Both the position numbers and the translations under genes were made by a program. The notes below the pieces were generated by a model, which ran no database searches, was not told the DNA's origin, and worked only from the letters and a program-made list of their open reading frames with translations. Of a stretch of DNA of 64,000 nt, positions 45,845 through 51,686 are shown in pieces (position 1 is the first letter of the stretch; each line of letters starts with the position of its first letter). Source of the DNA: Aquificaceae bacterium (GTDB lineage Bacteria > Aquificota > Aquificia > Aquificales > Aquificaceae); contig JANWWY010000004.1 in assembly GCA_025057455.1 (NCBI GenBank), positions 1-64,000 on the forward strand. The letters are read 5' to 3'.

Positions 45845-45875
45845 AAGCCCAAGTTAGGGAGGGGGTAGGCTTTTT
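45845..45875. terminator. possible weak hairpin between flgE and bioF
   Basis: AAGCC and GGCTT form a 5-bp stem over a GGG-rich loop followed by TTT; it overlaps the last bases of the convergent bioF. The 12-nt gap allows no other plus-strand terminator. Confidence 0.35.
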
Positions 45876-46978
45876 AGTGCTTCTAGAAGGAGCTGTATGT
45901 CTTCTTCTGAGTAATTTAGGCTTGCGGTCAACCTAAGCCTGGCTTGACCTTTTGGAACCGTAGGATATCTTATGGCTTGAAGCAGTATTCCCTTTTGAAG
46001 AAGATAGTCCCTTATACTTATAGCTTTAGACTCATCATAAACCATGATAGGTATTATGGGTGTGCGGTTGTAAAGAACTTGCAGGTTTACAGCCTTCAGA
46101 CCCTCATATAGTCTCTCGCTCGTGGTTTTTAGCTTTTCAAGCCTCCAATTTTCCGCTTGTATTATCTCTAAGGCTTTTATCGCTCCTGCGCATACCGCTG
46201 GAGGTAAGGACGTGGAAAATATTAGACTTCTTGCTCTGTTTATTAAATACTCGCACAGAACCTTTGAGCCACACACAAAGGCTCCATAAGAGCCTATAGC
46301 CTTGGAAAGAGTGCCCATTAACACAAGGAAGTCTTCCCAGGATTCTTCAAAGGCTTCAAGCCCACCCCTTCCATACTTACCTAAAACCCCCGTTGCATGG
46401 GCTTCGTCGAGGTATAGCATACAGTCATACTCTTTGCACAGCTTTTTAAGCTTAGAAATGTCTGCCACATCCCCATCCATGCTAAAAACGGTATCGCTCA
46501 CCACCAAACACTTTTTGTAGTTTTCACGGTTTTTCCTGAGGAGCTCTTCGAGGTTTTGGTAGTCCCTGTGTTTGTAGACGAAAACCTTTGCCTTTGACAA
46601 CCTGCAGGCGTCTACTATGCTAGCGTGGTTTAGCTGGTCGCTAAAGGCCGCATCACCATCCCCCACAAGGGACTGAATGGTACCAAGATTGGCAAGATAA
46701 CCAGAGCCAAAAAGCACACAGCACTCCACTCTCTTAAAGTCAGCCAATTTCTCTTCAAGCTCCTTATGGTAGAACGTGTAACCAGAAACAAGGGCGGAAG
46801 CACCAGAGCCAAGCCCGTATTCTCTAAGAGCCCTTATAGAAGCCTCTAAAACTTCTGGATGTTTCTTCAGTCCAAGGTAGTCGTTGGAACAAAAGTCCTT
46901 TAGCCCTTCCCTCAAAAACCTTGTGCGATAGAGGTACTGCTCTTTCAGAAAGTCAAGCTCCTTTCTTAGCCAATCCAT
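45854..46978 (-). CDS. bioF: 8-amino-7-oxononanoate synthase (alpha-oxoamine synthase)
   Basis: A fold-type I PLP enzyme of 374 residues that condenses pimeloyl-ACP/CoA with alanine in biotin synthesis. Key blocks are FCSNDYLGL, GSGASALVSGY, FGSGYLAN, HASIVDACRLS, LYLDEAHATGVLG and the Schiff-base Lys in MGTLSKAIGSYGAF. Glycine C-acetyltransferase (Kbl) and HemA1 are close relatives; the length and pattern favour BioF. A minus-strand TATAAT is 37 nt upstream of the start. No other biotin gene is nearby. Confidence 0.88.
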   Translation of the reverse strand: MDWLRKELDFLKEQYLYRTRFLREGLKDFCSNDYLGLKKHPEVLEASIRALREYGLGSGASALVSGYTFYHKELEEKLADFKRVECCVLFGSGYLANLGTIQSLVGDGDAAFSDQLNHASIVDACRLSKAKVFVYKHRDYQNLEELLRKNRENYKKCLVVSDTVFSMDGDVADISKLKKLCKEYDCMLYLDEAHATGVLGKYGRGGLEAFEESWEDFLVLMGTLSKAIGSYGAFVCGSKVLCEYLINRARSLIFSTSLPPAVCAGAIKALEIIQAENWRLEKLKTTSERLYEGLKAVNLQVLYNRTPIIPIMVYDESKAISIRDYLLQKGILLQAIRYPTVPKGQARLRLTASLNYSEEDIQLLLEALKSLPPP

Positions 46979-47024: not shown

Positions 47025-49586
47025 CTACTTTTCAGGCTCGCATATGTACTCCATGTCCATTGGTGGTTTCGATGTAGGCTTTTTCTTGACGCTTTTTGGT
47101 TTTTGGGCTACTACATTCTTGCTTGCTGGTTTATTTTCTACATTGGGTTTCTGTTGGAAGTTTTCTTTCCTTTTAACTGTTTTGCCACCAACAGGCTTGG
47201 CGGTTTGTGTTGTTTTTTGCTTTGGTCTCCAGTAGCATCTTTGTTTTGTCTCGGGCAGTATTTGTACTGTGCCATCCTTTTCTACAATCTGTAGCCCACC
47301 ACCGGTGGGTGTTGACGAACCTAAAGTGGCTCCAGCACCACCCTGCGAGGGCAATGGTGTAGGCATAAGTCCAACACCTGCACCCACACCTCCAGAGCTA
47401 CCGGAGGATGGGTTTGCTCCTGAGCCTGTTGGTTGTGTATTCTGTCCTCCATCCCCTTCCGCCATCTTCGGACAATTTTCTGGTTGGGAAAGTTCCACTT
47501 CTGCATTGGGTGGGCTTTCAATGCCTGCAACGGCAACTGTATTCTTTATAGGTCCCTGACCACAGCTGTGCTTACTCTTGAAGCAAAACTCCAAGGGCGA
47601 GGCATGGTAGTATGCTCTTACTTCAAAATTCTGAAGGTTTGCGCCCGTTGCAAGGGTGTATGCTACCTCTACCTTTATGGGTTGTCCGTTTGTCTGACTT
47701 GCTATACTGGATAAGCTTATGATGGTGCTGTTGTTGGCTATACAGTCGTACGTTAGCAGTGTGTTGTTGGAGACGTCTTTGACCTTTATTTCCAGCTTGT
47801 TAAAGTCAGAGAGGCTGGCATTTATAACCTCCAACCTTAGCCAAAGAAAAGGCCTTGGTCCACTACAGTAATCCCAAGGCTTGAAAACCTGCTCAATTTT
47901 ACCATCTTTGTAATCGCATCTGCGTGCAAAGCCTTGCTTATCCGGAGGTTTAGTAGGGTCAAAATACCACATGGCGGGAGCATTATCCCCAAGCACCCAT
48001 ATACATCCCCCGTCGTCTACATTGGTGGTGTAATCCCTCGGGTTACCATTTGACCCATGCGTCCAGCTTTTGTATTCCCATGTGGGCATGCAGGGCGCCC
48101 CAGTAACCCAATCCCAACATAGAACTCTACCAGGGTTGAAACTCCCAGCCTGATACATAAAATCTGTAGAGTAGGTCCTTGAACCAATCGTAACCTCAGA
48201 ACCAAGTCCAGTATTGAGATTTAGAGTACCAAAAAGGGTAGGCGGTGATGCGGGTAAGCCGTTAGAGAGGTTAAAACAATACTGTGAAAACTGATTCAAT
48301 CTTGTGCAAACATACTTTGGACTCATGGTGTTGTCGTAGTATATGAAAGAAGACCATACCCTAGGGTAGGTCATAGTTAAAGTGTGTGTTTGGGAGGATA
48401 CGGTCCACCCTGCGCAGGCGGATTTTGCACCTGCGTCATAACAAAAAGCTCTTATGGTTTTTGGAACTGCGTTTGCGTGGCTGTCGGTTATAAAGTATAA
48501 CTTGTTGCCCACCACCTCTCCAAAAATCCCAGGTCCTACGCTCATGGGCGGTACTAAACTTACACCCACTGCGTTTGGGTCTGTAAATGAAGCAAGGGGA
48601 AAGCTAAAGCCCGTGTAGTAGGAGCTAAGCCCTGTGCAAAAATTTGCAGGATTTGTCGCACTTAAGCAGTATAGCTTCAGGTCACCACCCACCATGTAAA
48701 ACTCGTTGCCCACCTTCCATGGTCCCTTTACATAAGACCAGGTTTTTGTTGGGTTTGTTCCAAGCTTGTAAAATCCACATTCCGTGTCGGTTTCAAGGTT
48801 ATAGCACCCAAGACCGAACTCCATATCGCTCCCAGTAACCGCGTAGTAAAGCCTCCCAGTGCCATCAATAAAATACTCTTCGTCGTACATGCCTGAAGAG
48901 GAGAACTTGCCTGAGTTATCGCCCTTGGGAAGAAGTTTTGGAAAACCAGGACAGTAGTTGCCCGTTGCGGTGTCTACACACTTGAAGATGGTGCCCGTGT
49001 TTGTATTGGCACCCATTGGCTCATGGTGATTTATGAAGTATATTCTAAGCTTTCCGCCCGAGGACATGTGTCTGTATGGGATGGCTCTGTATCCGTCTCC
49101 ACCGCCAGTCACATTAAAGCTGGAAGCCACAGAAGTATTTATGTTTATACTCATGTAGCCATTTACGGGTGGTGCGCTACCAGTCCATGTGGCTATAGTG
49201 TTTGTTGAATTCAAAGCACCGCTCCATCCAAAGGGTTGCTGTAGAGAACCAGGTACTACGGTGTTTATTGGACCCTCTGTTATGGTGATGCCGTTTTGCA
49301 CTGCGTTTGTGTTGTTGGCATAGTAAACTACCCAATCCACTACGTATGTATTACCGCTCTGCGATATATTAAGGGGCTTTTTTTCAAGGGTTGGATACTT
49401 GGGAAGTTCTCCCCTCTCAGTTAATTTTTTGATTATAGCCGGTATAAGCATAAAGGGTATTATTATGGAAGGTCCTACCTTGATACCTCCTCCCTCACCC
49501 TGGGGTGCCGGCCTGCCCTCCTGAGAGAAAGAAGTGCTTACAAAAAGGAAGGGTAGTATTAATAAAGTCGTTGCTTTTCTAAACAT
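47025..49586 (-). CDS. large secreted Cys-rich propeller-like protein, unknown function
   Basis: ATG 49586 follows GAGAGGAGGCTTATC and opens a signal peptide (FRKATTLLILPFLFVSTSFSQ). After a short segment that could be a second hydrophobic helix (SIIIPFMLIPAII), residues about 80-170 look like a beta-sandwich of the DUF11 type. From about 195 to 520 six blocks repeat an inter-strand cysteine pair, C-x8/9-C, each with a TG- or T-containing turn (CVDTATGNYC, CYNLETDTEC, CLSATNPANFC, CYDAGAKSAC, CTRLNQFSQYC, CWDWVTGAPC), as in blades of a PQQ-like beta-propeller. A Gly/Ser/Pro linker and a basic Lys-rich tail end the 853-residue protein. It has 21 cysteines. A DsbC-like gene precedes it. Confidence 0.8.
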   Translation of the reverse strand: MFRKATTLLILPFLFVSTSFSQEGRPAPQGEGGGIKVGPSIIIPFMLIPAIIKKLTERGELPKYPTLEKKPLNISQSGNTYVVDWVVYYANNTNAVQNGITITEGPINTVVPGSLQQPFGWSGALNSTNTIATWTGSAPPVNGYMSININTSVASSFNVTGGGDGYRAIPYRHMSSGGKLRIYFINHHEPMGANTNTGTIFKCVDTATGNYCPGFPKLLPKGDNSGKFSSSGMYDEEYFIDGTGRLYYAVTGSDMEFGLGCYNLETDTECGFYKLGTNPTKTWSYVKGPWKVGNEFYMVGGDLKLYCLSATNPANFCTGLSSYYTGFSFPLASFTDPNAVGVSLVPPMSVGPGIFGEVVGNKLYFITDSHANAVPKTIRAFCYDAGAKSACAGWTVSSQTHTLTMTYPRVWSSFIYYDNTMSPKYVCTRLNQFSQYCFNLSNGLPASPPTLFGTLNLNTGLGSEVTIGSRTYSTDFMYQAGSFNPGRVLCWDWVTGAPCMPTWEYKSWTHGSNGNPRDYTTNVDDGGCIWVLGDNAPAMWYFDPTKPPDKQGFARRCDYKDGKIEQVFKPWDYCSGPRPFLWLRLEVINASLSDFNKLEIKVKDVSNNTLLTYDCIANNSTIISLSSIASQTNGQPIKVEVAYTLATGANLQNFEVRAYYHASPLEFCFKSKHSCGQGPIKNTVAVAGIESPPNAEVELSQPENCPKMAEGDGGQNTQPTGSGANPSSGSSGGVGAGVGLMPTPLPSQGGAGATLGSSTPTGGGLQIVEKDGTVQILPETKQRCYWRPKQKTTQTAKPVGGKTVKRKENFQQKPNVENKPASKNVVAQKPKSVKKKPTSKPPMDMEYICEPEK

Positions 49587-49665
49587 GATAAGCCTCCTCT
49601 CCCCCAGCAACTGGAACTTTCCTGTTAACTAGAGGACCTAATTGATTAGCCCTTCCAATTTATGG

Positions 49666-50409
49666 CTAATTTACCAGTTTGTCAAGGTCTTCTTCTGTAG
49701 GCAATCCAGAATGCATCCTGCCGTTCATACCTATGAAGGTGGGAGTTCCACTAATCCCCAGTTTATTCATAAGTTCAAGGTTTGACTGTATCGCCTTCTT
49801 GCCGTTTTCACATTGATTGTTTGAGGTGTAGCCCTCTGTGTACTCTTTAAAACCCTTTTTATCACAGACCATTGCCACAGACTTGCCAAAAGCCTCTGGA
49901 TGTATTGGCAGAGGGTAAAGGATTAGCCTAACTTGGACGCCCTTTTTCTTTGACCACTCTTCCACTATAGGGTTGCTCCTTTTGCAAAAGGGACAGTCTG
50001 GGTCTGTTATAAAGTATACGTATTTACTACCTTCTCCTAACCTTATGTTTACATGCTTTTCAAGCTCTTTTAGTTGTTCTGCGGAGACCTTCATGAATTC
50101 TTGCTGTCGGTCCCTGGTTACGTTTTTCTTATCCTTTAGACTTATAAGATTCCCAGCGAGCAAATACTGACCTTGGCTATCCATGTAAAACACAAGGGGT
50201 TGTGCGCCCACCTTTACTACCACCTCACACAACCCCTTAATATTCTGAAGCTGGGAAACAGACTCAACGGTAAAATCCTGAGGAATAAGGTCTTTTACCG
50301 ATGTCTTAACCTGTTCCTTCGTAGGACACTTGGCGGAGCCTTGACCGCATGCGCCCACAAGAAATGTTGTTGCAACCACAAAGGATAAAAGACTTAACCT
50401 TTTTAACAT
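49666..50409 (-). CDS. DsbC/DsbG-like disulfide isomerase lipoprotein
   Basis: The signal peptide ends in a lipobox (LVGAC), so the mature protein is probably membrane-anchored in the periplasm. An N-terminal dimerisation-type domain (about 20-110) precedes a thioredoxin fold with the active site DPDCPFCKRSNP (about 155) and the cis-Pro loop ISGTPTFIG. Extra cysteines (MVCDKK, NQCENG) may form a structural disulfide. ATG 50409 has CAGGAGG upstream; the track start is 11 codons too early. It overlaps aroK by proximity (1-nt gap) and is followed by the Cys-rich secreted protein, a likely substrate. Confidence 0.9.
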   Translation of the reverse strand: MLKRLSLLSFVVATTFLVGACGQGSAKCPTKEQVKTSVKDLIPQDFTVESVSQLQNIKGLCEVVVKVGAQPLVFYMDSQGQYLLAGNLISLKDKKNVTRDRQQEFMKVSAEQLKELEKHVNIRLGEGSKYVYFITDPDCPFCKRSNPIVEEWSKKKGVQVRLILYPLPIHPEAFGKSVAMVCDKKGFKEYTEGYTSNNQCENGKKAIQSNLELMNKLGISGTPTFIGMNGRMHSGLPTEEDLDKLVN

Positions 50410-50410
50410 T

Positions 50411-50938
50411 CTAACCTCCTGTCCATAAATTATAAGGTACAAACCCTATGTTTTCAAGCAACTTTTCTACCAAAACCTCAGGCTTCAAAGTGGCATCAAG
50501 AACAAGGTGGGCTCTTTGGTAAACTTCAGCCCTATCCTTGAAAAGCTTTAAAAGCTCTTCTTTACTTCTTTTTAAGAGGGGCCTTGATGGGTCATTACCA
50601 CATCTTTTAAGGAAGGATTGGAAGTCTAAGTTTAACCAAACTACCAGACCCGAGCCCTTCATAACATCCATGGCTAAGAGATTTGCCCCCAGACCACCCC
50701 CTGTGCTTATCACAAGATTTTTTTCCTTTGCCAACCTACTTAGAACTTCCAGCTCTAACCTTCTAAAGTAATCTTCGCCCCTTTTCTCAAAAATTTCGGG
50801 AATAGACGCGCCTTCTAACCTCTCAATTTCCTCGTCTGTGTCCACAAATTTCCACCCAAGCCTCTCAGACAAAAGCCTGCCAAGGGTGCTTTTACCACTG
50901 CACATAAAACCTACAAGAAAAATCCTTTCAAAGTTCAT
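50411..50938 (-). CDS. aroK: shikimate kinase
   Basis: A P-loop kinase of 175 residues that phosphorylates shikimate for chorismate synthesis. It has the Walker A LVGFMCSGKSTLGRLL, the shikimate-binding DTDEEIE and EDYFRRLE, the TGGG core (VISTGGGLGAN) and the lid Arg in DPSRPLL. Start ATG 50938 overlaps the ccsA 3' end by 11 bp; no separate promoter is seen. It shares a transcript with dsbC-like and ccsA. Confidence 0.95.
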   Translation of the reverse strand: MNFERIFLVGFMCSGKSTLGRLLSERLGWKFVDTDEEIERLEGASIPEIFEKRGEDYFRRLELEVLSRLAKEKNLVISTGGGLGANLLAMDVMKGSGLVVWLNLDFQSFLKRCGNDPSRPLLKRSKEELLKLFKDRAEVYQRAHLVLDATLKPEVLVEKLLENIGFVPYNLWTGG

Positions 50939-51686
50939 GCCTTACAAAGAGCAAACCAAGGATTGATAATACCATACCCGTTATGGCTCCGTAGGAAAAG
51001 CTCCTGGGTTTAATCCTTCTAAGTAGGTTGAGGTGAACAAGAAGAGCGTAATAGACCCACAAGAAAAGCACGTATATGAGTTTTGGGTCGTTTATCCAGT
51101 GTTTCCCAAAAAAGCTCCTGCTCCACAAACTTCCAAAGACAAGGGTTAGGGTAAAGAATATAAAACTCATGCCTATGGAGAACCTTTCCGCAGACCTCAG
51201 TATGTTTAGAGGCAGAAAAAAACTCTGAAGTGTCTTGTGTTTGAGCTTGCTTTCTAAAAAAAGCCTAAGAAGGGAAGAGAATCCCCCAAAAAGGGCAAAG
51301 GCATAGGAAAAAAGGGCAAAGGTTACATGAAGAGAGTATAATGTGCTTCTATAGGGTGACGGTTCTGCAGGTATTAAAAGCAAAGTCCACAAAACACCCA
51401 ACATAGCAAAAAGAACTAAAAATCTCCTTATATAGTCCAGCTTCAAAGATAGAAGGGTAAGAAAGAAAAGCATACCATTTCCTAAGAGGGAATAAAAGCC
51501 GTAAACATCTGCAAAGGGGAAGCTTTTTACCTCTATGCCTAACCTTATCACGTAGGTTATGTAAACAAGGAAGGCGAGCATCATAAGAAATGTAGTTAGC
51601 CTTTTAAGAGAACCTAAAAGGTAAGATAGAAGGGAAAGGACAAAAACAAGAAAATAGAGACCTATACTTAGGTAAACTAAGAACAT
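50928..51686 (-). CDS. ccsA: cytochrome c assembly protein CcsA (heme handling)
   Basis: About eight membrane helices over 252 residues, with the heme-handling signature region WSRSFFGKHWINDPKLIYVLFLWVYYALL, a diverged form of the WWD-type motif (typically WxWDPKE), and conserved His in YSLHVTFALFSYAF. CcsA with CcsB (ResB) attaches heme to apocytochromes c in the system II pathway. ResB is not in the window. TAAACT on the minus strand ends 7 nt before ATG 51686, suggesting a leaderless message. Divergent from acpS by 15 bp. Confidence 0.88.
   Translation of the reverse strand: MFLVYLSIGLYFLVFVLSLLSYLLGSLKRLTTFLMMLAFLVYITYVIRLGIEVKSFPFADVYGFYSLLGNGMLFFLTLLSLKLDYIRRFLVLFAMLGVLWTLLLIPAEPSPYRSTLYSLHVTFALFSYAFALFGGFSSLLRLFLESKLKHKTLQSFFLPLNILRSAERFSIGMSFIFFTLTLVFGSLWSRSFFGKHWINDPKLIYVLFLWVYYALLVHLNLLRRIKPRSFSYGAITGMVLSILGLLFVRHEL

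Follow-up and report, generated by a model that had tools for sequence, protein, structure and literature searches.

When a gene for a DsbC-like lipoprotein stands directly upstream of the gene for a cysteine-rich exported protein, is the isomerase devoted to that protein or are the two genes merely neighbours? This question is raised by a locus found in a stretch of 64,000 nucleotides from an Aquificaceae bacterium (the window, i.e., the whole stretch that was analysed). The genome of the window is designated G000, and other genomes of the same genus G002–G013. A preliminary description of the locus had proposed that an unstudied cell-surface beta-propeller with a disulfide in each blade is served by its own isomerase. 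As detailed below, the propeller is supported by several approaches, whereas the private isomerase is not borne out. The features of the locus are collected in Table 1.

Table 1. Features of the propeller locus (positions in the window; residues are those of the propeller protein).
Feature	Position	Strand	Basis or remark
bioF-like gene (presumed)	45854..46978	-	downstream of the propeller gene
Propeller gene, exported protein of 853 aa with 21 Cys	47025..49586	-	open reading frame and Cys count
Lys/Pro-rich tail, residues about 776-853	47028..47261	-	conserved in type
Gly/Ser/Pro-rich linker, residues about 708-775	47262..47465	-	conserved in type
C-terminal beta domain, residues about 575-707, conserved C668, C675, C705	47466..47864	-	
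Predicted seven-bladed beta-propeller, residues about 166-559	47910..49091	-	structure model, fold search, repeats
N-terminal Asn/Thr/Gly-rich probable beta domain, residues about 70-160	49107..49379	-	low model confidence
Second conserved hydrophobic stretch, residues 36-54 (GPSIIIPFMLIPAIIKKL)	49425..49481	-	most hydrophobic 17-mer of the propeller protein
Signal peptide, residues about 1-22	49521..49586	-	by inspection; mature protein starts with conserved [FS]xQ[EQ]G
DsbC/DsbG-like lipoprotein, 247 aa, CPFC active site	49666..50409	-	directly upstream of the propeller gene
aroK, shikimate kinase	50411..50938	-	profile matches; neighbour
CcsA/CcsB-type cytochrome c assembly protein	50928..51686	-	profile matches; neighbour

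The propeller gene starts with an ATG at position 49586 and GAGAGGAGG stands just before it. The hydrophobic segment GPSIIIPFMLIPAIIKKL, which contains a proline, comes after the signal peptide in all six homologues and may be a membrane anchor. The Lys/Pro-rich tail is flanked by two conserved cysteines, C784 (QRCYWRPK) and C849 (MEYICEPEK), which are kept in the five complete propeller genes and possibly close the tail by a disulfide into a basic loop.

In the remainder of the protein, six pairs of cysteines are of the C-x8/9-C type (203/212, 261/270, 307/317, 382/391, 427/437 and 490/499), most of them with a TG or similar turn inside. Shuffling of the sequence (20,000 times) gave a mean of 0.77 such pairs, and six were reached in a single one of the 20,000 shuffles. 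All 12 paired cysteines are invariant in a six-member alignment including five relatives that are 55–77% identical over the propeller region, as are C528, C557, C574, C668, C675 and C705. The pairs are thus both non-random and invariant. Their geometry, the export of the protein and their conservation suggest that they form disulfides.

A structure model of the full-length protein is poor (mean pLDDT 48) except in its middle. Modelling of residues 160–580 gave a pTM of 0.73 and a mean pLDDT of 68, with repeated strand units and the Cys pairs lying across an outer hairpin. This strand pattern can be read as seven blades, a division that is our own reading of a model in which some outer strands are short or missing. 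The six pairs are predicted to sit across the hairpin made by the outer two strands of blades 1–6. Blade 7 is atypical, as its cysteines (C528 and C557) are wider apart, and the model is less reliable for blades 1, 5 and 7 than for the others. The leading fold matches in the PDB are nearly all beta-propellers (BamB, WD40 proteins, PilY1, tetrathionate hydrolase and lectin propellers). TM-scores to individual propellers are low (about 0.25–0.5), so that the fold class is supported and no particular propeller family is singled out. When the profile of the family was compared with itself, off-diagonal matches brought the Cys pairs of one blade into line with those of another (the best match with P 1.7e-4, the majority of the rest weak). 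Internal sequence repeats are therefore found together with a predicted toroid of four-stranded blades that is closest to solved propellers; confidence in this propeller model is only medium because the alignment consists of six closely related sequences. Taken as a whole, the preliminary description of the protein stands: its coordinates and anatomy (853 exported residues, 21 cysteines, Gly/Ser/Pro linker, Lys-rich tail) and its six C-x8/9-C pairs were confirmed, with TG turns in most pairs. Structure prediction (residues 160–580), fold search and repeats in register with the Cys pairs all speak for a propeller in which most blades have a disulfide.

The protein had also been presented as unstudied, and the family is indeed absent from Pfam (E<=1), NCBIfam and PHROGs, none of whose profiles matched it; a sequence search of the PDB gave no convincingly related chain and a literature search on Aquificales propellers found nothing. 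Similar propellers with Cys pairs may exist in other phyla. Whole-genome searches of 136 genomes of the phylum located the propeller gene only within the genus, where 6 of 14 genomes have it; the 122 others gave no match, and a profile of the propeller region used at a laxer threshold added chance-level matches only. When bacterial and archaeal genomes, one per species, were scanned with two peptide patterns from the N-terminal domain, a search that could miss distant relatives in other phyla, the only records returned were two from the same genus. No relatives were found among plasmids and phages (tblastn) or viral contigs. One public record, RFFP01000012.1 (L049), is labelled 'Acidobacteria bacterium isolate J001' and looks mislabelled, its apparent counterpart being contig C20 of G008, a genome of the Aquificota genus.

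The identity of the upstream genes is as previously described. The DsbC-like protein carries a lipobox (LVGAC) and has both the DsbC_N dimerisation domain (PF10411, 1.4e-14) and a thioredoxin domain with a CxxC motif (PF13098 Thioredoxin_2, 1.9e-14), both matches being above curated cut-offs; aroK and ccsA, which precede it, were confirmed by profile matches. It shares DsbC_N and the CPFC-bearing thioredoxin domain with the DsbC/DsbG isomerases. It differs from them in being a lipoprotein, in remaining below the equivalog level of NCBIfam (68.8 bits versus 124 for DsbG and 36.5 versus 215 for DsbC) and in being conserved independently of the propeller. Consensus scans of the 79-base gap between dsbC and the propeller gene detected no terminator-like site, and gave one promoter-like match for the propeller gene, which straddles the boundary between dsbC and the gap. 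This match qualifies the earlier statement that both genes belong to one transcript; from the sequence, their co-transcription is plausible. The gene that follows the propeller gene is one that we take to be bioF-like.

A dedicated pair, in which the lipoprotein would have evolved to fold the propeller so that both form one system, predicts that the two genes are kept together. In five of the six propeller genomes they do adjoin and share a strand, and a protein with 21 cysteines is a plausible isomerase substrate. However, clear full-length dsbC orthologues are present in 11 of the 14 genomes of the genus (the 10 others being 77–85% identical to that of the window). Of these 10 genomes, G002, G003, G007, G009 and G013 lack the propeller. 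Nearly every genome of the family, in other genera without the propeller too, has a relative that is about 40–69% identical. The propeller gene can also be found without its neighbour: in G006, dsbC abuts bioF and the propeller gene lies about 0.8 Mb away among unrelated genes, with no dsbC beside it. A homologue without the neighbour is among the findings that the preliminary description had itself named as refuting its proposal. Furthermore, about 20 kb around the two genes are collinear gene for gene in the five genomes where they adjoin; their adjacency is therefore inherited gene order and adds no information. In addition, hairpin cysteines only 8–9 residues apart would be the bonds most easily formed without an isomerase. 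A dedicated pair thus appears scarcely credible and is already largely refuted by the pattern of presence and absence. The proposed co-occurrence of the two genes fails in both directions, and the claim of a dedicated isomerase falls with it. Given the adjacency in five of the six genomes, the propeller may still have a loose functional preference for this DsbC; dsbC and the propeller gene are probably just neighbours.

The same comparison throws light on the history of the propeller gene. In both G013 and G006, ccsA-aroK-dsbC-bioF follow one another in this order, with nothing between dsbC and bioF. In a tree of neighbouring genes, propeller-bearing genomes belong to several clades and are found on both sides of the deepest (midpoint-rooted) split. 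The simplest reading is that the ancestor had the propeller gene at its present site and that several losses, and a move in G006, followed. The propeller gene of G005 is split by an insert of up to ~390 bp (L013:9600-9990) that separates the linker from the tail; dsbC is intact. Both ends of an IS607/TnpB-type element are partly represented in the insert, which is apparently an internally deleted copy of that element. This interruption and the repeated absence of the gene indicate that the propeller is dispensable, whereas dsbC is kept. A longer copy located elsewhere in G005 (L074) is an element of about 3.1 kb with a MerR-type IS607 resolvase and pieces of TnpB. In G007 and G003, which do not carry the propeller, the slot downstream of dsbC is occupied by a convergent block (L044:7802-14320 and L046:7776-14276) encoding two proteins of about 920 aa and one of about 355 aa, TPR-like and glycan-enzyme-like by eye.

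The reading that we consider rather probable is that of an accessory, lineage-specific exported seven-bladed propeller, restricted to one genus of Aquificota, with stapled hairpins that depend on general thiol machinery including a non-private DsbC. The following model can be drawn. The hydrophobic segment and first beta domain would be followed by the propeller, a second beta domain, the flexible Gly/Ser/Pro linker and the basic tail. In blades 1–6, a cysteine of the third strand and another on the fourth strand (or the adjoining turn) are most likely bonded to each other, so that the outer hairpin is stapled by a disulfide, and these staples would stabilise the fold against heat in a thermophile. 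The signal peptide and the composition of the protein suggest a location at the cell surface or in the periplasm. Since the fold is of the propeller class, the linker leads into a tail and the gene is patchily distributed, the protein might be a binding or adhesion scaffold, whose basic tail might serve as a contact or anchor touching an anionic surface. Its disulfides would be made and corrected by the general extracytoplasmic thiol machinery of the organism, and the adjacent DsbC-like lipoprotein would be a part of this machinery rather than a private partner.

Known propeller systems offer other roles, but no feature specific to catalysis or to a complex was found. The protein could be a divergent PilY1-like tip adhesin of type IV pili, as PilY1 proteins have a seven-bladed propeller and 7–30 cysteines in a well-studied set (PMC13190605), and the C-terminal domain of PilY1 (3hx6) came 34th in the fold search (E 4.3e-6). 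The two therefore have in common an exported seven-bladed propeller within a Cys-rich protein. However, many unrelated propellers match equally well or better, PF05567 (PilY1/PilC) has no match in the protein or in 12 of the 14 genomes of the genus, including that of the window, and no pilus or pilin-like gene was noticed in the neighbourhoods examined. Moreover, PilY1 carries its propeller at the C-terminus, after a large N-terminal part, whereas here the propeller is followed by a beta domain, a linker and a Lys-rich tail. This kinship appears unlikely.

An extracytoplasmic enzyme of sulfur or redox metabolism, of the PQQ type or akin to tetrathionate hydrolase, appears quite improbable. It is true that the Acidithiobacillus tetrathionate hydrolase 6l8a matches both models and 7cqy one of them, but the TM-scores are no better than those of WD40 proteins or BamB, no catalytic residue was identified, and there is neither a match to the PQQ or any other Pfam family nor a convincing sequence match in the PDB. 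A periplasmic assembly factor resembling BamB would account for BamB chains being among the best PDB fold matches. Unlike an outer-membrane assembly factor, the propeller gene has been repeatedly lost or broken within the genus, and BamB is not known to have a linker, a basic tail or Cys pairs of this kind, which makes such a role highly improbable. Both BamB (8qpv_B) and the PQQ-type propellers (6l8a) are, like the protein studied here, extracytoplasmic and rank among its best fold matches; they show no sequence match to it, and it differs by the Cys staple of six blades and by its additional domains.

With the accessory propeller, a family of probable propellers that lacks annotation comes to light, built on a regular plan of one staple per blade. 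A propeller with many disulfides is not new in itself, as seen with PilY1; what sets the protein apart is that six blades are stapled in a regular manner. It is conceivable, although rather doubtful, that the family represents a class of surface propellers confined to one genus and combining a hairpin staple in nearly every blade with a disulfide-bracketed Lys-rich tail, in a lineage where a DsbC-like lipoprotein is present and neither DsbB nor VKOR reaches the curated cut-offs. The family could usefully illustrate how a repeat fold is thermostabilised in nature, and its members could be convenient natural substrates for the Aquificota thiol pathway. The failure of the private-isomerase claim spares an experiment built on that premise.

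The thiol oxidation of this lineage deserves a separate comment. Pfam searches of 41 genomes of the family (G000 and 40 others) detected DsbB in none of them and VKOR in none at a score above the curated cut-off, and a literature search on VKOR or DsbB in Aquifex yielded nothing. Despite this, DsbC-like lipoproteins are near-universal in the family, and a divergent oxidant may make its disulfides. Weak sub-threshold VKOR-like matches occur in one other genus only, and a DsbD/CcdA-type protein (DsbD_TM) is present in the genome of the window.
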